Assembly (NCBI RefSeq): GCF_001644605.1
Contig: NZ_CP011388.1
Coordinates: 4,383,501-4,447,500 of the forward strand
Origin: Paenibacillus swuensis
Lineage (GTDB): Bacteria; Bacillota; Bacilli; Paenibacillales; DY6
Direction of reading: 5' to 3'
DNA length: 64,000 nt
Positions 6,305-19,010 of the stretch are shown here, piece after piece. Each line of letters opens with the position of its first letter. Position 1 is the stretch's first letter. The notes beneath the pieces were generated by a model. It saw only the letters and a program-made list of their open reading frames with translations, did not search any database and had not been told where the DNA came from. A program made the position numbers and the translations under genes.

Positions 6305-6934
6305 TTAGGTATTCAATATTGTGGGGGAAAACTGAAATGGATGGAGCCCCCCTTTATAAGCAAATGAAGTATGACCGGTTTCCTCGGATACGACCAAAAT
6401 CAGCGCATCGCTGGCCTCTGATAAACCGATTGCCGCCCTGTGCCTGGTGCCTAACTTTGTATCCAAGGAACCCTTCTGTGAAACGGGAAGAATATTGGCT
6501 GCAGACACAATGATGTCCGCATCTATCAACACGGCTCCATCATGGAGTGGATTTCCTGGATAGAAGATGGACTCCAACAAAGGAGAAGTAAGCATTGCCA
6601 TTACCTCAATACCTGAATGAAGTATGTTACCGACGTGCTGCTCCCTTTTAATTACGATAAGACCGCCATGTCGGCGCTCGGAGAGATGTTTAACTGTTAA
6701 GGCCAGATCGCCCACACGTGAGGAATAACCAGATAAATAACACTGCAGGTAAAAGGAAGATGCAAGGGCCACGACTTTATTCATAGCACCCGTCATCTGA
6801 TCGAGTTCACTCATAATGCAGTGATCTTCATTATGTAGATTCTGGATGCTTTTTTCAATTGTGCTTTGAATCGTTTGAAGGTGAATTTTTATTGTTTCGT
6901 TTAAAGGAAATTCATCACAAACAATGTCGTTCAC
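6305..6934 (-). CDS. cdaS: CdaS-type diadenylate cyclase
   Basis: A 209-residue protein with a C-terminal DAC (DisA_N) domain that joins two ATP into cyclic di-AMP. The two signature motifs are present: DGA at residues 132-134 (LHDGAVLID) and RHR at residues 164-166 (TRHRAAIGLSE). The first 60 residues are helical and match the N-terminal inhibitory region of the soluble CdaS/YojJ class, not the membrane part of CdaA or the DNA-binding part of DisA. Length equals B. subtilis CdaS, which is sporulation-specific. The start is GTG at 6934 behind GGAGGTG. It begins 38 bases after an aldehyde dehydrogenase with no terminator between, so cotranscription is possible. Confidence 0.88.
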   Translation of the reverse strand: MNDIVCDEFPLNETIKIHLQTIQSTIEKSIQNLHNEDHCIMSELDQMTGAMNKVVALASSFYLQCYLSGYSSRVGDLALTVKHLSERRHGGLIVIKREQHVGNILHSGIEVMAMLTSPLLESIFYPGNPLHDGAVLIDADIIVSAANILPVSQKGSLDTKLGTRHRAAIGLSEASDALILVVSEETGHTSFAYKGGLHPFQFSPTILNT

Positions 6935-6972: not shown

Positions 6973-8400
6973 TTATTCTTCGTAACCTAATATCGCTTTC
7001 GGTTCGACATGTTCTTCCAGACCGTATATGCCGGAATCCCTGCCGATACCGGATTGTTTAAATCCACCGAATGGCGCATATGGATCATCGTGTACACCTT
7101 TGTTGATAAGAACTCTGCCCGCTACAAGCTTTGAAGCAACGTTCCTAGCCCTCTCTAAGTTAGTAGAGCTAATGTATGCGGCTAATCCGTATATGCTGTC
7201 GTTGGCTATCTCTACCGCCTCATCTTCCGTTTTATAGCTAATAACGGCTAGAACAGGACCAAATATTTCTTGTTGAGCAATTGACATATCGTTCGTGACA
7301 TTGGCGAAAACAGTTGGTTTTGCAAAATAACCATTTTCAAACCCTTCCGGATGTCCTAACCCTCCGGTGATCAATTCTCCACCCTCTTGAAGCCCTAATT
7401 GAATGTAGTGCTGGACGGTATCGTATTGCTTTTGATTCACCAACGGACCCAGTACAGTATCCATTTCCATTGGATTACCTAGTTTGGTTGCTGCGACTGT
7501 ATCTTTAATTATTTTCTTTACCTCTGCTAACCGTTTCTCCGGAACGATTAATCTTGTTCCGGCATGGCAGGCTTGTCCCGTATTACTGAAAGCGATCATG
7601 ACAGCCATCGGAATGGCTTTATCAAAATCCGCATCTTCAAGAATAACATTTGGCGATTTGCCTCCAAGTTCAAGAGCCAATCTCTTTAAGGTATCGGCAG
7701 CCCCTTTACTAATAAGCTTGCCAACAGTGGTGGAGCCCGTAAATGAGATTTTCGCCACATCAGGATGACGGGTAATTTCAGCGCCAACGACCGCTCCGGT
7801 TCCGTTCACAATATTAATAACACCGTTGGGAACACCTGCTTCGTGAAAGCATTCAATTAACAATTTCGTCTGAAGCGCGCTAATCTCGCTTGGTTTGACA
7901 ACGATTGTGCAACCGGTTGCGATAGCTGGAGCTATTTTTCCGCAGATATGCGTGTAATTTGCATTCCATGGTGTGATAGCCCCGATAACGCCCAATGGTT
8001 CCATAACAATTTTGGTTTTTCCTTGTTGGCTTTCAAACTTAAAGCTTTTCAAAGCTTCTTTCGCGTGCAAAAACGTTTGCGCCGCGAATACGGCACGTCC
8101 CCTCGATGGACCTATAGGCGATCCGTACTCCTCCGCAGAAGCACTTGCTAAGAGATCAACTTTAGCCAAGACGGAATCATGAAGCCGTTGGAGCAATTGA
8201 CTGCGTTCTTCCACTGTCGTCTTCGAGAATGTAACGAATGCGTTTTTGGCTGCTGAAATAGCTCTTTGCGTATCCGATTCGGTACTAAGCGTAACATGGC
8301 CTATTAGTTGTTTTGTAGTGGGATTAATCAATTCTTGCGTTTCAGTTCCGCTGGATTTTACATATTCGCCGTTAATGTAGTTTTGATCGATTTTGATCAT
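6973..8400 (-). CDS. aldehyde dehydrogenase (NAD(P)-dependent), paralogue 1
   Basis: A 475-residue member of the ALDH superfamily that oxidises an aldehyde to a carboxylate with NAD(P)+. Catalytic glutamate lies in LELGGKSP (about residue 240) and the nucleophilic cysteine in GQACHAG (about residue 278); ITPWNANYTH and IFGPVLAVI are further family blocks. It is closely related to the second ALDH at 9809-11239, so a local duplication around the MFS gene is likely. It sits in the operon ALDH-MFS-ALDH-(cdaS) under an AdhR-type promoter, which points to detoxification of reactive aldehydes. The substrate is unknown. The ribosome site (GGGGG) is weakly placed. Confidence 0.9.
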   Translation of the reverse strand: MIKIDQNYINGEYVKSSGTETQELINPTTKQLIGHVTLSTESDTQRAISAAKNAFVTFSKTTVEERSQLLQRLHDSVLAKVDLLASASAEEYGSPIGPSRGRAVFAAQTFLHAKEALKSFKFESQQGKTKIVMEPLGVIGAITPWNANYTHICGKIAPAIATGCTIVVKPSEISALQTKLLIECFHEAGVPNGVINIVNGTGAVVGAEITRHPDVAKISFTGSTTVGKLISKGAADTLKRLALELGGKSPNVILEDADFDKAIPMAVMIAFSNTGQACHAGTRLIVPEKRLAEVKKIIKDTVAATKLGNPMEMDTVLGPLVNQKQYDTVQHYIQLGLQEGGELITGGLGHPEGFENGYFAKPTVFANVTNDMSIAQQEIFGPVLAVISYKTEDEAVEIANDSIYGLAAYISSTNLERARNVASKLVAGRVLINKGVHDDPYAPFGGFKQSGIGRDSGIYGLEEHVEPKAILGYEE

Positions 8401-8464: not shown

Positions 8465-9640
8465 TCACTGTATGGTTTTTAAAAGTTCTAACCTCTTAAC
8501 CCTACTGGTATGAACAATGGAGATAAGCAAGCATATACCGATTAAAATCATGAATACGATAAATACGGATCGAATGGATTCCAAGTGCAATAAAGATTGA
8601 ATACCGTTTGTAATTAATGGAGATATAAATTGACCCATATTCGCGAATGCGGTCATCAGCATGATTGCCAACGTCATATGCTCCATCGGAGCCACCTCCG
8701 CCATCTTGTTTAAAAGAAACGGATAAGCCAAACCGAAGCCATAACCGACTAAGCCAACCCCTAATGCAATCATCCATAACCCATTCGCTTGGCTCATGAG
8801 AAGTAAAGCCATTCCCAGCAGTAATAAAATAAAAGAAACGATACTTTTTTTGAAAACATGCCTCATTTTTGTACCTGTAATGCCAGCAACAAACACAAAT
8901 ATAAATGATAATGAGGTCAGATATCCCGCCATAGCCGAGTTGCCAAACCCGTTATCAACGACAAAGGAGGCTAGATTTGTTGGAATCAAGTAGTACAAAA
9001 CCATGAGTCCCGTTGTCATCAAACCAATCCAATATACTCTAAAAGGTATTTTCTTGTTAGAAATAGGCATGTCATTCTTCACGACAGAAATTGGTTTATC
9101 GCGCGGGACAAACAGGAGTACTAGGATTAGCAATACAATTCCAAAGGAGTATGTCCAAAAAACGCCTCTCCACCCCAATACGGTAATCGCTCCGCCGATG
9201 AAGAGGAAGAAGGCACCGCCCAGACCATTAACGCCGACTGTTAGTCCGTTCATTTTAGATCGCTCATCCCCCTTGTAATTCTCTGCAACTAGTGCATTCA
9301 TAAGTGGCGTAATAAAACCGATACCGATCCCAAGAATGGCACGCATGACAAGAATTCCGGCGATGGAATTCATAAATGCAGGCCCAACACCTCCTATAAC
9401 ATATAGAATTAACCCCAGCGTTATTATGGATTTCTTGGATACCCTTTTGGACAAAAAACTTCCGATTAACAAACTAGGTAAAATAAAAAATGAAGAGAAA
9501 GTTACAACTAGCTGTATAAGTACTGGATTCGTATCCTTGAAATCAAGCATGAGCAACTTGACGGCAGGCGCAGCCAGCATGGGTGCTAAAGTCGATGTGA
9601 TTGCCAATGCCAGTAAGGTCATCTTAAAACTCGCTCTCAT
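8465..9640 (-). CDS. MFS transporter, probable drug/organic compound efflux
   Basis: A 391-residue integral membrane protein with about 12 hydrophobic segments and the MFS motif-A-like stretch GSFLSKRVSKKS between helices 2 and 3. It resembles small-molecule efflux permeases. Placed between two aldehyde dehydrogenases, it may export a toxic aldehyde, its precursor or its product; that is inference. AGGAGG precedes the ATG at 9640. The gap to the upstream ALDH is 168 bases and carries a GC-rich hairpin. Confidence 0.85.
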   Translation of the reverse strand: MRASFKMTLLALAITSTLAPMLAAPAVKLLMLDFKDTNPVLIQLVVTFSSFFILPSLLIGSFLSKRVSKKSIITLGLILYVIGGVGPAFMNSIAGILVMRAILGIGIGFITPLMNALVAENYKGDERSKMNGLTVGVNGLGGAFFLFIGGAITVLGWRGVFWTYSFGIVLLILVLLFVPRDKPISVVKNDMPISNKKIPFRVYWIGLMTTGLMVLYYLIPTNLASFVVDNGFGNSAMAGYLTSLSFIFVFVAGITGTKMRHVFKKSIVSFILLLLGMALLLMSQANGLWMIALGVGLVGYGFGLAYPFLLNKMAEVAPMEHMTLAIMLMTAFANMGQFISPLITNGIQSLLHLESIRSVFIVFMILIGICLLISIVHTSRVKRLELLKTIQ

Positions 9641-9658
9641 GATCCGCCTCCTATTAAA

Positions 9659-9689
9659 GCGGCCGAGCCTGACTCCAGGCTGCGGCCGC
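9659..9689 (-). other. GC-rich intra-operon hairpin before the MFS gene
   Basis: An inverted repeat with arms GCGGCCGAGCCT and AGGCTGCGGCCGC, 12 paired bases with a single bulged base, ends just upstream of the MFS ribosome site. The tail is only TTTAAT, so it may act as an attenuator or RNA-processing/stability element rather than a full terminator. Confidence 0.5.
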
Positions 9690-9808: not shown

Positions 9809-11239
9809 TTACAGAACGACGTCGTGACCCAGGATGGTTTTTGGCTCTACATACTCTTGCAGTCCGTATGCTCCAAATTCCCTGCCGATTCCGGATTGTT
9901 TGAACCCTCCAAACGGAGCTGTCGGCTCGTCGTGCAATCCATTGATCAACACACGACCCGAGACAATTTTCGAAGCAACCCGATTAGCTGCTTCTAAGTT
10001 CGAAGAACTGACATAAGCGGATAGGCCATAGATCGTATTGTTCGCGATTTCGATGGCTTCCTCTTCGGTTTTAAATGTAAGAATGGACAATACCGGTCCG
10101 AATATTTCTTCTATGGCGATTGTCATATCCATAGTTACATTGACAAATACGGTAGGTTTAACAAAATAGCCTTGTTCTAACCCTTCCGGATGCCCCTCAC
10201 CCCCAACGATTATTTCAGCACCTTCGTCAACGCCTAGTTTAATATAACGCTGAACCGTCTCATATTGCTTTTGATTAACCATTGGTCCAATATAAACACC
10301 GGTCTCTCTCGGGCTTCCTACTTTGATTCCATCAACCGTCGTTATCACAAGCCGTTTCACTTCTTCCAATCGATGTTCTGGCACGATCAACCGGGAACCG
10401 ACATGGCAAGCTTGTCCGCTGTTGCTGAACGCGGTCATCACGGACAATGGGATTGCTTTGTTAAAATCGGCATCGTCAAGAATGACGTTAGGCGATTTGC
10501 CGCCAAGCTCCAGCACCAATCTCTTCATTGTGTTGGCGGCATCTCTACCGATGATTCTTCCTACTTGGGTAGAACCCGTGAATGAAATCATCGCGACATC
10601 CGGGTGACGGGTTAATTCTGCTCCGACCACATCGCCTCTGCCATTGACGAAGTTGATAACACCGTCAGGAATACCGGCTTCATGGAAGCATTCCGTAATA
10701 ACTTGCGTTTGTATAGCACTAAGCTCACTTGCCTTAATGACGACAGTACATCCAGCGGCAATTGCAGGTGCTAATTTCGTTGAGATATGCGTATAGTTCG
10801 CGTTCCAGGGAGTAATCAGTCCGATGACGCCAAGAGGTTCAAGGACGACCTTTGCTTTACCAATACGTTTTTCGAATTGAAATTCAGCCATAGCTACTTT
10901 ATTATGAAGAAAGTTTTTTGCGGCATACTGAGTACGTGCGGCTGTCGCGCCTTCTGGTGCCCCATATTCGTCTACGGCTGCTTGATTGAGGGCTTCGAAA
11001 TTGTCCATCATTACGTCATGCAACCTTTGGAGCATCTCACTACGTTCCTCGACGGTTGTTTTTGAAAATGTTTTGAAAGCTTCTTTCGCTGCCGCGATGG
11101 CATCGCGTGTATCCTGCTCATTTCCTAAAGTCACGCTTCCGATGATTTCTTTTGTCGAGGGATTGATCAAGTCATGAACTTCGGTCCCGTTAGGTTTGAC
11201 GAACCGGCCATTGATATAAATTTGATTTATCTTTTTCAT
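9809..11239 (-). CDS. aldehyde dehydrogenase (NAD(P)-dependent), paralogue 2
   Basis: A 476-residue ALDH, first gene of the operon. The catalytic glutamate is in LELGGKSP (about residue 241) and the cysteine in GQACHVG (about residue 276). It is collinear with the ALDH at 6973-8400 from the N-terminal INQIYINGRFV block to the C-terminal FGGFKQSGIGRE block. AAGGGAGAG precedes the ATG at 11239. An 18-bp AdhR-type operator lies within the promoter about 70 bases upstream, so expression is probably switched on by aldehydes or other electrophiles. Substrate preference cannot be read. Confidence 0.9.
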   Translation of the reverse strand: MKKINQIYINGRFVKPNGTEVHDLINPSTKEIIGSVTLGNEQDTRDAIAAAKEAFKTFSKTTVEERSEMLQRLHDVMMDNFEALNQAAVDEYGAPEGATAARTQYAAKNFLHNKVAMAEFQFEKRIGKAKVVLEPLGVIGLITPWNANYTHISTKLAPAIAAGCTVVIKASELSAIQTQVITECFHEAGIPDGVINFVNGRGDVVGAELTRHPDVAMISFTGSTQVGRIIGRDAANTMKRLVLELGGKSPNVILDDADFNKAIPLSVMTAFSNSGQACHVGSRLIVPEHRLEEVKRLVITTVDGIKVGSPRETGVYIGPMVNQKQYETVQRYIKLGVDEGAEIIVGGEGHPEGLEQGYFVKPTVFVNVTMDMTIAIEEIFGPVLSILTFKTEEEAIEIANNTIYGLSAYVSSSNLEAANRVASKIVSGRVLINGLHDEPTAPFGGFKQSGIGREFGAYGLQEYVEPKTILGHDVVL

Positions 11240-11301: not shown

Positions 11302-11332
11302 ACCTTAAACCTTAAAGTGCACTTTAAGTCAA
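11302..11332 (-). promoter_or_regulatory. MerR/AdhR-type promoter-operator of the ALDH-MFS-ALDH operon
   Basis: Read on the minus strand: -35 TTGACT (11327-11332), a 19-base spacer and -10 TAAGGT (11302-11307). Spacers of 19 bases are the hallmark of promoters activated by MerR-family proteins. The spacer holds the perfect 18-bp palindrome CTTAAAGTGCACTTTAAG (11311-11328), which fits the CTTAAAG-N4-CTTTAAG site known for B. subtilis AdhR. Confidence 0.8.
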
Positions 11333-11420
11333 GTAGTTAAAAAATTGAAAAAATAGGGCGATAAGGCATTTTTTGAGGAAATCGGTAATGATACTATATG
11401 GTGTCTTTCAGAGGCTGAAA

Positions 11421-11460
11421 TGTGAAACAAGGCTACCGAAGCCGGTAGCCTTGTTTCACA
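11421..11460 (-). terminator. hairpin terminator after the MerR gene
   Basis: An 18-bp perfect stem with arms TGTGAAACAAGGCTACCG and its complement around a four-base loop, 14 bases after the regulator's stop. The T-rich tract is short, so termination strength is uncertain. Confidence 0.65.
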
Positions 11461-11474
11461 TATTAAATCCCCAA

Positions 11475-11885
11475 TTACTGGAGCTTGCCCTCGTCCATTC
11501 CTAAGTCTCGGCCTGGAACGACTGTACCTTTCTGTATTCCATCATATATAGACAATTTATGATTGACCGCATAGAAGGCTTCATTCAATTCAAGTTGCTG
11601 CCTATGGAGCTCTTTTTGATGTTCCTCGAGAATGGCTCTTCTCTGCGGAATCGTCGAATCTCCTTGCATGGCGAGATCCACGATCTGTTTCAATGCGGCC
11701 ACTTTCATTCCCGTGCGTCTAAAGCAGGTCATAAGCTTAATCCAGTTCAAATCCTTTTGTTCAAAAATACGGTTTCCATGCTCGTCTCGCGTGATATTCG
11801 GTAGTAATCCCTCTTTTTCGTAATAACGAATAGTGTGCGCAGGACATCCGAGCTTATCTGAAGCCTGCTTGATAGAGAATGGCAT
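11475..11885 (-). CDS. MerR-family regulator, AdhR/NmlR-like
   Basis: A 136-residue MerR regulator: winged helix-turn-helix at residues 3-70 (SIKQASDKLGCPAHTIRYYE, then GLLPNITRDEHGNRIF) and a dimerisation coiled coil at about 80-120. Cys54 in LMTCFRRTGM matches the position of the conserved redox/electrophile-sensing cysteine of AdhR; Cys14 is an extra one. Two AdhR-type operators are nearby, one in its own promoter and one in that of the ALDH operon. It most likely activates both when its cysteine is alkylated by aldehydes or quinones. Start ATG at 11885 follows AAGGAG at good spacing; six codons upstream in the open frame are dismissed. Confidence 0.85.
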   Translation of the reverse strand: MPFSIKQASDKLGCPAHTIRYYEKEGLLPNITRDEHGNRIFEQKDLNWIKLMTCFRRTGMKVAALKQIVDLAMQGDSTIPQRRAILEEHQKELHRQQLELNEAFYAVNHKLSIYDGIQKGTVVPGRDLGMDEGKLQ

Positions 11886-11914
11886 GATTTCAACTCCTTG
11901 CAAAGTTTAAACTT

Positions 11915-11945
11915 ATCTTAAGCATTAAAGTATACTTTAAGTCAA
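11915..11945 (-). promoter_or_regulatory. autoregulatory MerR/AdhR-type promoter-operator
   Basis: On the minus strand: -35 TTGACT (11940-11945), a 19-base spacer and -10 TAAGAT (11915-11920). The spacer contains the palindrome TTAAAGTATACTTTAA (11925-11940). The geometry is the same as that of the ALDH operon promoter, 30 bases before the regulator's start. Confidence 0.8.
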
Positions 11946-12136: not shown

Positions 12137-12472
12137 ATGTCCACTAATCAAGTTATTCTAAACATTCGCTTCAAAATAAAACCGGGTATGAAAGAGAGTT
12201 TCCGCGACAGTCTCTTTGCAATGATAGATAATTTCCGAGAAGAGCCTACCTTCGTAACTGCCATTGTCTCTGATGATATCGATAGTCCGAATGATCTAGT
12301 CATTTATGAAATTTGGCAAGGTACTAGAGACAGCTGGGTACAGGAGGAGTTTCCAAAGCCTTATCGCAAAGAATATGAGGAGACACTTGCAAACTTAATT
12401 GATGACAGAATTGTAAGCTGGCTTGAACCAATTGGAGAATGGGGAAGCCAACTAACGAATGTAACTCGCTAA
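12137..12472 (+). CDS. ABM-domain protein, putative quinol monooxygenase (paralogue 1)
   Basis: A 111-residue ferredoxin-like alpha+beta barrel protein of the antibiotic biosynthesis monooxygenase/YgiN group. Family-like features are the N-terminal strand VILNIRFKIKPGMKESF, VIYEIWQ and the C-terminal block. Such proteins oxidise or handle quinols and similar aromatic electrophiles, usually without cofactor. It is a paralogue of the protein at 21108-21449, sharing IVxDDIDxPxDxVxYEIW and EWGSxLT. AAGGGGTG lies before the ATG. A 32-bp element upstream is shared with the paralogue. Confidence 0.75.
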   Translation: MSTNQVILNIRFKIKPGMKESFRDSLFAMIDNFREEPTFVTAIVSDDIDSPNDLVIYEIWQGTRDSWVQEEFPKPYRKEYEETLANLIDDRIVSWLEPIGEWGSQLTNVTR

Positions 12473-14925: not shown

Positions 14926-16029
14926 TTACGCAGTTGCCTTCTTTGACTTTATTCTTTTGAATAGAAATGCAGTCAACAGGGAGAAAGGAACGAGAATTAT
15001 GAATGGTATGGAATAATACATCCAAATTTCTTTAATGAAGGCGATAAGATCGAGTTGATTGGGGTGAATAAACAACGATAGCTGTATAATCAATAAGCTT
15101 AATGGAATTAAGAAGAACCGATAATTCCTGCTTCCTAATGTCTGCGATAATGCAAGTGCCGTTGTAAGGTGGATTACCGTCAGCTTTAAGAACTCCTCGA
15201 AAATCCAAATCACAAAGAAGAGGGGTTCTATTCTCTCAAAGAAGTCGCCGATTGAAATATACATCACAGCAGTATAGGAAGGGAAGACCTGTTGACTCGT
15301 AATTTCCCCAAGTACAAAAATATCTGTCAGAAAAGTAATCATAATTAGAACACCGGATACAGCAATAGCTGTTGTTACGGTTTTTATTACGGGTGCAGTT
15401 CGATTCAAAAAAGGAATAAGCATGGCAAACAGCATTGTTTCCCCGAACTGGATTGTAGCAATTTGCCCTGCACCTTCAAGAACAGGAGTCCATCCACTCT
15501 CCATAATCGGTAATATATTCTCCACCTCCATGTTCGGAACCAAAAGTAAAGTGGCTAGTACCCAAGACAATAATGCAAACGGTAGCAAAAAAAACGCACA
15601 TCTGCAAATAACTTCAATTCCGCACCACGCTGTCCAAGCGACAATGCCTATAAGAACCGTCCCTACAACAATGGTCGGGGTGCGTGGAAGTAAGGCGGTA
15701 TTAGTGAAGTCTGTAAAATTCCGTAGTACATAGGATTCTAGAGTCAAACCATACCAGACGTACATGAGTCCAATGGTTTTACCAAGCCAAGAACCAAGGA
15801 GCATATGGGCAATTTCAATTATGGATTTATGAGGGTATTGGCGACACAGATATGCGTAGACTGCGTTTAGCCCTATACCCGCGAACGTACCTAATACGGG
15901 GGAGAGCCAAGAATCATGTCCGGCATCGAATCCAATAGGTAGCGTATAGATGCTACCCATAATATATAAGAACATGAGGACAAAAAGCCCAGTGTTTGAA
16001 ATTTCTCCATTATTCTGAAAACTTTTCAT
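14926..16029 (-). CDS. spore germination endospore permease, GerAB type (B subunit)
   Basis: A 367-residue membrane protein with about ten hydrophobic segments, of the GerAB/APC-like endospore permease family. In germinant receptors the B subunit binds the germinant in the spore inner membrane. Family-like stretches include LMFLYIMGSIYTLPIGFDAG near the N-terminus and PFIILVPFSLLTAFLFKR near the end. AAAGGAG lies before the ATG at 16029. It is last in the operon, after a C subunit and a small membrane protein, unlike the common A-B-C order. The germinant cannot be predicted. Confidence 0.9.
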   Translation of the reverse strand: MKSFQNNGEISNTGLFVLMFLYIMGSIYTLPIGFDAGHDSWLSPVLGTFAGIGLNAVYAYLCRQYPHKSIIEIAHMLLGSWLGKTIGLMYVWYGLTLESYVLRNFTDFTNTALLPRTPTIVVGTVLIGIVAWTAWCGIEVICRCAFFLLPFALLSWVLATLLLVPNMEVENILPIMESGWTPVLEGAGQIATIQFGETMLFAMLIPFLNRTAPVIKTVTTAIAVSGVLIMITFLTDIFVLGEITSQQVFPSYTAVMYISIGDFFERIEPLFFVIWIFEEFLKLTVIHLTTALALSQTLGSRNYRFFLIPLSLLIIQLSLFIHPNQLDLIAFIKEIWMYYSIPFIILVPFSLLTAFLFKRIKSKKATA

Positions 16030-16041
16030 TAGAATTCTCCT

Positions 16042-16266
16042 TTATTTCACGCTTGGAATGATGAATTCAATCCATTTTCGTACCCAAGCAGCGGGACCAA
16101 TGAGAGGGAACTCCCAGATAAGCAATATCCCAAGTACGGTTGAAACGCATAGCATGAATGCTACACATATTCGCTCTGATAAATTCGTCTTCTCGCGCAT
16201 GAAATGGAAATGGACTCCCGTCAGCAGGGACATCCCCGTTAGGAACAGTGTAGTATAGATAATCAT
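16042..16266 (-). CDS. small two-helix membrane protein, candidate germinant receptor D subunit
   Basis: A 74-residue protein with two hydrophobic segments (residues about 2-21 and 33-53), joined by a short charged loop (REKTNLSER). It sits between the C and B genes of a GerA-type operon, 1 base after the C stop and 12 bases before the B start. Small two-helix D-subunit proteins are encoded with several Bacillus receptors and tune germination. Size, topology and position all fit; sequence similarity alone would not prove it. Confidence 0.7.
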   Translation of the reverse strand: MIIYTTLFLTGMSLLTGVHFHFMREKTNLSERICVAFMLCVSTVLGILLIWEFPLIGPAAWVRKWIEFIIPSVK

Positions 16267-16267
16267 G

Positions 16268-17431
16268 TCACCTTTTGTCTGCCTCTCTGATTGAATTCGA
16301 TACGACTCCCGCTCTCTTCAAATGGATTTTTACGTTTACTATAATTTCGGCATTCGCATAAATATCATCCCAATTTGCCTCGATTCGTTTCCATGTTTCA
16401 TAGTTGTGCCGGTGCAACTGCAACCCAATACCGAATACATCGGATTTCAATTGAGATTGAGTTTTTCTAACAGTACGAAATGTCTCATCTTTTAGGAAAT
16501 GCCCAAGCTCTTTCTCGATGATTCCAATAGTGTTCCGGCTTATGTTCATGTCGACATTGGCCTCATGCAGGACACCACTCGCATCCAGATCAATTCGTAC
16601 AGTTGCTTTATTGCCCTTGATGTTGGTGACAAATTTGCTTTTCATATCGTTCAGAATCACGCCGACATTACCGCCTATATGAGGAAGTGTCGTTCCTATA
16701 AATTCCTGTTTGGTTTCTTCCTTTATCCACCTCAAGCTTCTGGTTTCGTTGTTGTTCAAGTATCCGACCAGCTTATAATCTTTAAAAACAGCCGTCGATG
16801 AAAGGCTGAAAACGGTAAAGTTCGACTGGCCGGTCGGAGGCACCAATTCAATAGCACCCGTTACGGGCACGATGCCTTCCTCGGCTTGCATCATCATGAA
16901 GTCACGCATTGTGACGGATGTTCCGACTCCGGCACGCTCCAACTCACGGACTTCCTCGGAGGGTATACGCTCAATTGGATGGTCAGTCTTGAGGAGTTTG
17001 GAAGCTTCATTGCCTTTGGCCACGACGATAAAAGTCCTTAGTCTGCTTCCCGGATCACGAGCGTAATAATCAAGAATATCCTTGATGCCTTTTCGGGCCA
17101 GACCTTCGCCAATGAATACAACTCGCCGATGACCTTTGAAGAAGTGTCTCGACATCTTTTCCTGCACTTTTCTTTCGGTATCATGAAGGTTTGTTCCGGT
17201 TGCAGAAAAGACGACATAGGTTTTTCCAAGTGTTCCGTTGGTTGAGGTACTGCTGCTCTCGCCTCCTCCTGCTCCAGCGGCAATAGGGACGAGAATGGAC
17301 GTCTTAAGCTCACCCTTATTCGTCAAATCAAGCGCGGAAGCCATAAAAAAAGCCATATCGTTCATCTCAATTCGATCCCAGCATCCACTTAGCAGCATAA
17401 GTCCAATAAACAGAAAGAACATCTTTTTCAT
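16268..17431 (-). CDS. germinant receptor lipoprotein, GerAC type (C subunit)
   Basis: A 387-residue Ger(x)C lipoprotein. The signal peptide MKKMFFLFIGLMLLSGC ends in a lipobox with the lipidated cysteine at residue 17, followed by WDRIEMND, typical of the family. The rest shows GerAC features such as EKMSRHFFKGHRRVVFIGEG. The ATG overlaps the stop of the A gene (ATGA), so the longer open frame starting at 17491 is not used. It works with the A and B subunits on the outer face of the inner spore membrane. Confidence 0.92.
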   Translation of the reverse strand: MKKMFFLFIGLMLLSGCWDRIEMNDMAFFMASALDLTNKGELKTSILVPIAAGAGGGESSSTSTNGTLGKTYVVFSATGTNLHDTERKVQEKMSRHFFKGHRRVVFIGEGLARKGIKDILDYYARDPGSRLRTFIVVAKGNEASKLLKTDHPIERIPSEEVRELERAGVGTSVTMRDFMMMQAEEGIVPVTGAIELVPPTGQSNFTVFSLSSTAVFKDYKLVGYLNNNETRSLRWIKEETKQEFIGTTLPHIGGNVGVILNDMKSKFVTNIKGNKATVRIDLDASGVLHEANVDMNISRNTIGIIEKELGHFLKDETFRTVRKTQSQLKSDVFGIGLQLHRHNYETWKRIEANWDDIYANAEIIVNVKIHLKRAGVVSNSIREADKR

Positions 17432-18966
17432 TTGCTTCCCTCCTTGCGCAGGGTCCTTTTGTTTGGCTGGGATGTAAAGAATAGAGTCCATAAAGGGGCA
17501 CGGAAAAATGTATCTTTAAGAACGCGGAAGCTGTAAGGAGCTGTAGGAAACAAATACGGAACACCGAAAGAGCTGAGTCCGCTTAGATGAACGAGAATTA
17601 TTAACAATCCAACGGCAATGCCATAAAGCCCGAACATACCCGCGAATAGAATTAAAGGAAATCTGAGTAATCGAAATGCAAGACCGAAGTTGTAACGAGG
17701 AATAGTAAATGAAGCAATACCTGTCAAGGAAACGACAATAACCATAGGAGCTGAAACAATCCCCGCTTCTACGGCTGCTTGACCGACCACGAGTCCACCT
17801 ACGATACTGACTGCCTGCCCGATTTGTTTAGGCAATCTTTCTCCGGCCTCTCGTAACCCCTCGAAAGTAATTTCCATAATAATGGCTTCTACCAAAGCAG
17901 GAAAAGGAACTCCCTCCCGTGCAGCAGCAATGCTCAGTAAGAGATTAGTCGGTATCATCTGTTGATGAAACGTGGTGAGTGCAACGTAAAGGGAAGGCAA
18001 CAAGAGTGAAATCATGGCGAACAAAAGTCGAATTAATCGGATAAAGTTAGCATACACGACGCGTTCATAATAATCTTCGCCAGTTTGGAGGAATCCCCAG
18101 AACGTCATCGGAGCACAGATGACAAAGGGAGAACCGTCTGTCACGATGGCTACTTGACCTTGTAATAGGCCCGAGACAACATAATCGGGTCTCTCCGTTA
18201 CAAGAAATTGGGGAAAGGGGGAGAAGGTTCTCTCTTCAATAAGTTGTTCAATATAGCCCGATTCGAGGATTGCTTCCGTCTTAATCTTTTCGATTCTCAT
18301 TTTTATTTCTTGCAGAGTAAACTCATCCACGATACCACTGATATAAGCGATTGCGACATCGGTTTGAGCCAAGTCGCCTACTGTGGTCATATCAAATTTT
18401 AGACGGGATGACCTAATTCTTCTGCGTATCAGGCTCGTATTTGTCCGAAGAATCTCGGTAAATGAATCCCTAGCTCCACGGACCGTATTCTCGGTAGATG
18501 GTTGTTCGACGGATCGGGTTTTCCCTCCCGATACTCCTACAAGCAGGGCATCTTTTTGACCCTCAATGCAGATGGCGGCATGTCCTTTCAATATTGTTTG
18601 CTCCAACTTGCTGAATTCGGCAGCGCTATTCACTTGACCGTTGGCAATCAATTGATTTTTAAGAAAATCGAGTATATTTTCTTTGCTAGTTTGGTGGGAA
18701 GGAAGGCAAGCCATTAATGGTTTTATCACACATTCGTCTAGCATAATATCATCGACCAGACCATCGATATAGATTAAGAGGGCTTTTTCCCTGCCTCCGA
18801 TTTCCAAAGGGCGGAATACAACGTCCGAGCAGCCAGCGAAAATTATTCGTAAGAGATGATCGTTTTTTTGCAGGTCCATATGAAGTTTTTCGGCCGGCAA
18901 AGCAGGGTGTTTATCCTGGATGATTTTTTCTGCTTTAGTTTTGCTCCAATATCGATTCCTTAGCAT
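17428..18966 (-). CDS. germinant receptor A subunit, GerAA type
   Basis: A 512-residue protein: a soluble N-terminal half (about residues 1-280) and a C-terminal half with five or so hydrophobic segments. The hallmark REGVPFPALVEAIIMEITFEG is cut here to GVPFPALVEA, followed by LREAGERLPKQIGQAVSIVG. It is the first gene of the receptor operon and may form part of an ion channel in the spore inner membrane. AAAGGAGGT lies before the ATG at 18966; the upstream ATG at 18987 sits inside that ribosome site and is dismissed. A sigma-G-like promoter precedes it. Confidence 0.92.
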   Translation of the reverse strand: MLRNRYWSKTKAEKIIQDKHPALPAEKLHMDLQKNDHLLRIIFAGCSDVVFRPLEIGGREKALLIYIDGLVDDIMLDECVIKPLMACLPSHQTSKENILDFLKNQLIANGQVNSAAEFSKLEQTILKGHAAICIEGQKDALLVGVSGGKTRSVEQPSTENTVRGARDSFTEILRTNTSLIRRRIRSSRLKFDMTTVGDLAQTDVAIAYISGIVDEFTLQEIKMRIEKIKTEAILESGYIEQLIEERTFSPFPQFLVTERPDYVVSGLLQGQVAIVTDGSPFVICAPMTFWGFLQTGEDYYERVVYANFIRLIRLLFAMISLLLPSLYVALTTFHQQMIPTNLLLSIAAAREGVPFPALVEAIIMEITFEGLREAGERLPKQIGQAVSIVGGLVVGQAAVEAGIVSAPMVIVVSLTGIASFTIPRYNFGLAFRLLRFPLILFAGMFGLYGIAVGLLIILVHLSGLSSFGVPYLFPTAPYSFRVLKDTFFRAPLWTLFFTSQPNKRTLRKEGSK

Positions 18967-19010
18967 CCGCTTACCTCCTTTGAACATTAATACGACCTTA
19001 ATTGTTTTCG

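Follow-up and report, generated by a model that had tools for sequence, protein, structure and literature searches.

A predicted aldehyde-responsive MerR-type regulatory unit with two operator-bearing promoters in Paenibacillus swuensis

The stretch of DNA analysed here, 64,000 nucleotides of the Paenibacillus swuensis genome (the window), carries on its minus strand a gene for a 136-aa MerR-family regulator (11475..11885; Pfam MerR_1, E 1.8e-17). The same strand encodes an aldehyde dehydrogenase of 476 aa (ALDH1, 9809..11239; PF00171, E 1.6e-150), an MFS transporter of 391 aa (8465..9640; PF07690, E 2.6e-41) and a second aldehyde dehydrogenase of 475 aa (ALDH2, 6973..8400), which is 66% identical to ALDH1. 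Translation of the regulator would begin at the ATG at 11885, with AAGGAG 8 bases ahead of it, and counting from this start the cysteine discussed below is residue 54. On the other side of the regulator, a spore germinant-receptor-like cluster was recognized by eye from the translations at about 14926-18987 (minus strand).

The regulator gene and ALDH1 are each preceded by a promoter-like sequence of the same design, read on the minus strand. P1 (11915..11945), the predicted promoter of the regulator gene itself, consists of TTGACT (11945-11940), a 19-bp spacer (11939-11921) and TAAGAT (11920-11915), i.e. TTGACT-N19-TAAGAT; P2 (11302..11332), the predicted ALDH1 promoter, reads TTGACT-N19-TAAGGT, with the respective parts at 11332-11327, 11326-11308 and 11307-11302. 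The first-pass annotation of this DNA had described both promoters as TTGACT-N19-TAAGRT with TTAAAG-N4-CTTTAA palindromes in the spacers, and we found the promoter elements exactly at these bases and both palindromes present without mismatch. Each palindrome is a perfect one of 16 bp, whose outermost base (1 base) is shared with the -35 hexamer: candidate operator 1 (TTAAAGTATACTTTAA) occupies 11925..11940 in P1, and candidate operator 2 (TTAAAGTGCACTTTAA) occupies 11312..11327 in P2. The AdhR box of Bacillus subtilis, reportedly described by Nguyen et al. in 2009, is said to read CTTAAAG-N4-CTTTAAG and to lie between the -35 and -10 elements. P2 contains this consensus as a full 18-bp dyad (CTTAAAGTGCACTTTAAG) and P1 contains all of it but the last G (CTTTAAT); the earlier designation of the dyads as AdhR-type is well supported. 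An ABM-domain monooxygenase-like gene (12137-12472, plus strand) is divergent from the regulator; its control by P1 was considered and is unsupported, as there is no promoter geometry facing it and the gene was not recognized at the corresponding P. sacheonensis and P. endophyticus loci (L021 and L022).

To ask how often such sites arise by chance, we counted them in the complete 5.01-Mb genome. Taken by itself, the 12-base core does not stand out from a reversed control (4 sites versus 3, not significant), as would be expected if P1 and P2 were functionless, promoter-like sequences. In contrast, the strict 17-base site (TTGACTTAAAG-N4-CTTTAA) occurs exactly twice, at P1 and at P2, and the reversed pattern has no exact match in this genome. 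No other strict-site match with fewer than three mismatches was found in the 5.01 Mb, and the near-matches, 14 in number, all have three mismatches, versus 34 matches of the reversed control at up to three mismatches. Two further core sites lie within a 735-aa ORF and between two ORFs that we take by eye to encode IF-3 and L20, where rpmI (likewise named by eye) would be expected. Both sites were rejected as regulon members, being located inside or amid coding sequence and lacking promoter geometry. The genome search for further boxes suggested in the first-pass annotation found none in this genome besides P1 and P2. Across the order, the strict site is present in 71 of 392 genomes and the reversed pattern has one match.

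The spacing of the promoter elements was then compared across 61 regulator loci, i.e. the window and 60 others, six duplicates having been removed. The loci were chosen by regulator similarity, seven of them (L209-L211 and L216-L219) being picked once box positions were known; the box sites were selected solely by the core (≤ 1 mismatch) and by a gene start ≤ 230 bases away. These loci yielded 93 gene-facing core boxes, at which pairings of TTG... with TA...T elements were 19 bp apart in 63 cases and fell on all remaining spacers of 14-22 bp in 12. Twenty-four permuted half-sites that received identical treatment gave 0-6 gene-facing sites each, without a single 19-bp pairing. In 54 of the 60 other loci (47 of 53 without the seven late picks), a gene close to the regulator could be assigned a box with promoter geometry; of the six loci counted as lacking one, L030 and L196 do have such a box, but no ORF was assigned to it. 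The regulator's own promoter carries the box in 38 of the 60 (36 of 53 without the late picks), consistent with the autoregulation that had been predicted. Likewise, the presence of the dyad within a 19-bp spacer at both P1 and P2, together with the clade-wide peak at 19 bp, agrees with the proposed MerR-type promoter architecture. The strict site, the 19-bp spacing and the conservation of the box far exceed the controls, and we regard a chance origin of P1 and P2 as very unlikely.

The same box is found at the same position as that of P1 in P. endophyticus (L022) and P. sacheonensis (L021). Among these two genomes and the window, the box-containing stretch 5′ of the regulator is conserved, while the sequence farther upstream has diverged. 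Where the box differs between loci, both arms of the dyad covary: several aldo/keto-reductase loci have TTAATG/CATTAA, L029 has TTAGAG/CTCTAA, and L176 and L177 have TTAAAC/GTTTAA. With arms that vary together, the dyad behaves as a protein-binding site would. At one locus (L235), a related regulator is separated from its target box by an ORF that by eye looks like that of a TnpB-type transposon protein; at the near-identical locus L234, the target box is beside the regulator.

The regulator has an N-terminal MerR winged-helix domain (PF13411, 63.6 bits versus a cut-off of 21.6). Its best solved relatives are the Haemophilus influenzae NmlR structures 5e01, 5d8c and 5d90 (E about 2e-26), to which it is similar over residues 4-115; Cys54 is present and aligned to the NmlR Cys54, as expected from the cysteine noted previously. 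With 101.7 bits, the protein falls short of the cut-off of the NCBIfam NmlR equivalog (NF041849, 175 bits), which no protein of the control genomes, B. subtilis included, reached either. In its own genome it is the sole clear NmlR-type protein (101 bits, the next one scoring 47). Overall, its sequence makes it a well-supported MerR protein near the NmlR/AdhR clade. When B. subtilis AdhR was sought by its neighbours among the class-wide regulator matches, none was recognized.

The fate of Cys54 was followed in the 57 regulators, the window's included, whose reading frame is clean; the remaining four of the 61 loci yielded no such frame. The cysteine is kept in 53 of the 57 and replaced by Trp in L174, L176 and L177 and by Arg in L175. 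Because the box still precedes an aldo/keto reductase in L174 and L175, Cys54 cannot be indispensable throughout the group, provided that regulation persists in those four; L176 and L177 combine their altered dyad with a HIBDH-like neighbour. Nor does the box belong to a single regulator, as it or a similar one also occurs near regulators that are just 36-47% identical to that of the window.

In the loci compared, genes that follow the box or adjoin the regulator encode mainly carbonyl enzymes, namely aldehyde dehydrogenases, aldo/keto reductases (24 proteins in one cluster), two kinds of SDR and a zinc alcohol dehydrogenase. MBL-fold hydrolases and MFS proteins also occur, and the MBL-fold hydrolase and HIBDH-like proteins, as classified from Pfam matches of representatives, would be non-aldehyde members of the regulon. 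A carbonyl-enzyme regulon across the relatives is well supported by these gene neighbourhoods. As to ALDH1 itself, its best solved relatives are 6x9l and SAV2122 (3ty7), and a mismatch-free box precedes its orthologues (82-93% identity) in L022, L183, L187, L196 and L197. In P. sacheonensis, the aldehyde dehydrogenase persists only as fragments (10547-10750 of L021) behind a box 2 that has lost one arm base.

The full set of ALDH1, MFS, ALDH2 and regulator recurs, rearranged, in two other genomes. In L183 the order is box, ALDH, ALDH, MFS and regulator, all in the same direction, and in L197 the regulator is divergent, with two boxes in between. The MFS orthologues (74% identical in L197, 72% in L183) adjoin ALDH1, and the ALDH2 orthologues are likewise 74% and 72% identical respectively; L187 and L196 have ALDH1 plus MFS pieces. 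That the four genes keep turning up side by side while their order changes is the best indication of a joint function.

The regulator gene is followed by a terminator-like hairpin with a 19-bp stem (11420..11461, minus strand), which lies ahead of P2 and recurs in L021 and L022; regulator and ALDH1 are therefore probably on separate transcripts. The 86-nt stretch folds with -37.8 kcal/mol (z -6.9, none of 200 shuffles equally stable), although the hairpin has no long T run and is not listed by a terminator scan. A second, GC-rich hairpin followed by TTTAAT (9653..9689, minus strand) lies in the 168-nt gap between ALDH1 and MFS, just 5′ of the MFS ribosome site. Its 169-nt stretch has a z of -2.6, with 1 of 200 shuffles equally stable. 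The hairpin, which has too few T for the terminator scan to list it, is a possible attenuator or weak terminator. Of the ALDH-MFS-ALDH operon proposed previously, the gene set is borne out by its conservation elsewhere, while the single transcript is put in question by this strong hairpin with its TTTAAT. It is conceivable, if on balance doubtful, that P2 drives ALDH1 only and that MFS and ALDH2 form a separate transcription unit, the two being mere neighbours; the 168-nt gap with its hairpin would fit, as would the lack of intact MFS and ALDH2 genes in L022 and L021. However, orthologues of all three genes accompany such a regulator in L183, where they run in one direction with one box ahead, and in L197, and the gap itself contains neither a box nor, by scan, a minus-strand promoter-like site. 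Expression of MFS and ALDH2 from P2, at least in part, is what our preferred reading predicts.

Comparison with P. endophyticus bears on the origin of the cassette. The stretch from the regulator through P2 to ALDH1 is 88.8% identical in DNA over 2158 bases, and the proteins are 89% (regulator) and 93% (ALDH1) identical. In contrast, IF-3 (again as named by eye, and the single gene compared) is 72% identical between the window genome and the genome taken as P. endophyticus, and the two are placed in different families; the same-genus and same-family genome sets contained the source genome alone. The excess of the 89-93% identity over that of IF-3 suggests recent horizontal transfer of the regulator-ALDH1 stretch as the simplest reading. 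After ALDH1, P. endophyticus retains a remnant of the start of ALDH2; the longer gene set was therefore probably the ancestral one and was shortened in that genome. The regulator tree places the protein of the window with L021 and L022 (support 100/96), apart from L183, L187 and L197, despite an identity of 83-88% between the ALDH1 of the window and those of the latter three loci.

The gene set is followed, 38 nt past ALDH2 and with no evident terminator between, by a cdaS-type diadenylate cyclase gene (6305-6934, minus strand; PF02457 and PF10372). The cassette might have landed upstream of cdaS in such a way that transcripts reading through from P2 would tie c-di-AMP synthesis to aldehyde stress, a link made by horizontal transfer and specific to this lineage; we consider this scenario very improbable. 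The best cdaS relatives are 55-58% identical; matches were obtained in 73 of 198 genomes, and in none of the 29 other loci examined was an aldehyde dehydrogenase like that of the window found within about 1.5 kb of the cdaS relative. A conserved link between the ALDH operon and cdaS was rejected on the basis of these loci.

Our preferred reading, to which we give a probability of roughly 80%, is that the locus is an autoregulated unit of the MerR/NmlR-AdhR kind that responds to carbonyl electrophiles. Members of the MerR family are described as acting on promoters with 19-20 bp spacers through DNA distortion (PMC9909328; PMC5045206), and by this described mechanism the regulator should hold and then realign P1 and P2. 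Specifically, we infer that a dimer of the 136-aa protein would sit on the dyads in the over-long 19-bp spacers and keep both promoters inactive or low before the trigger. The trigger, most likely a reactive aldehyde or related electrophile, would act through Cys54, directly or indirectly; the activated regulator would kink and untwist the spacer and so realign the promoter elements, allowing RNA polymerase to engage. Regulator and ALDH1, and at least in part the downstream MFS and ALDH2, would then be expressed, whereupon the dehydrogenases would oxidize the aldehyde and the MFS protein would export the aldehyde or its product.

The inducer is most likely a carbonyl electrophile, with a wider thiol-stress signal as the main rival. 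With the same promoter mechanism, the unit could answer to quinones, to disulfide or chlorine stress, or to some other thiol-reactive signal, the dehydrogenases clearing secondary aldehydes. The B. subtilis AdhR regulon is indeed reported to be induced by allicin and diallyl polysulfanes as well (PMC6943732), and the SDRs, aldo/keto reductases and MBL-fold hydrolases of the relatives would suit other substrates. Yet the immediate and most conserved target of the cassette is an aldehyde dehydrogenase, and for the characterized relatives NmlR and AdhR a review describes a response to formaldehyde or methylglyoxal that requires the conserved cysteine (PMC4776306). On this evidence a non-aldehyde inducer appears unlikely, though by no means far-fetched.

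Alternatively, the circuit might be catabolic, the regulator binding a specific aldehyde or precursor to switch on MFS-mediated uptake and oxidation as a carbon source, with Cys54 not the sensor. The two dehydrogenases, being 66% alike, may differ in substrate; the family models that score highest for them, HpaE and betaine aldehyde dehydrogenase, stay below cut-off. None of the best 25 NCBIfam families listed exceeds its cut-off for either protein. Moreover, the MFS protein is part of the set in L183 and L197, and the four relatives without Cys54 would be accounted for. Against this, no further catabolic genes were recognized in the unit, and related regulators keep a wide mix of reductases and dehydrogenases, which fits detoxification better. 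We therefore think a catabolic role rather improbable and retain the carbonyl-electrophile response as the preferred reading.

Among characterized systems, B. subtilis AdhR (YraB) is likewise described as a MerR-family activator with carbonyl-detoxification targets, and its conserved cysteine, Cys52, as being needed for the formaldehyde response (PMC4776306; PMC11577753). The AdhR targets are adhA, yraA and yraC, whereas the window has an ALDH-MFS-ALDH set, and the two systems are likened here by features other than the AdhR sequence. NmlR, described as a formaldehyde-responsive MerR regulator (PMC4776306), differs in controlling adhC-estD. Also comparable are the Paenibacillales regulators beside aldo/keto reductase, SDR or aldehyde dehydrogenase genes (such as L025, L027, L183 and L197), with the same box and 19-bp geometry; in most loci these relatives are 58-89% identical to the regulator of the window, while target enzymes and gene order differ. 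Our literature searches found neither an experimental record on these regulators nor a description of the cassette of the window.

The unit extends known AdhR/NmlR biology and does not change it. It provides an operator rule, TTGMCTTAAAG-N4-CTTTAA within a 19-bp spacer, that is testable across the carbonyl-stress regulators of Paenibacillales, a large and uncharacterized group, and it points to their likely targets. Within this group, the relatives that keep the box without Cys54 would offer a natural test of the cysteine as sensor.
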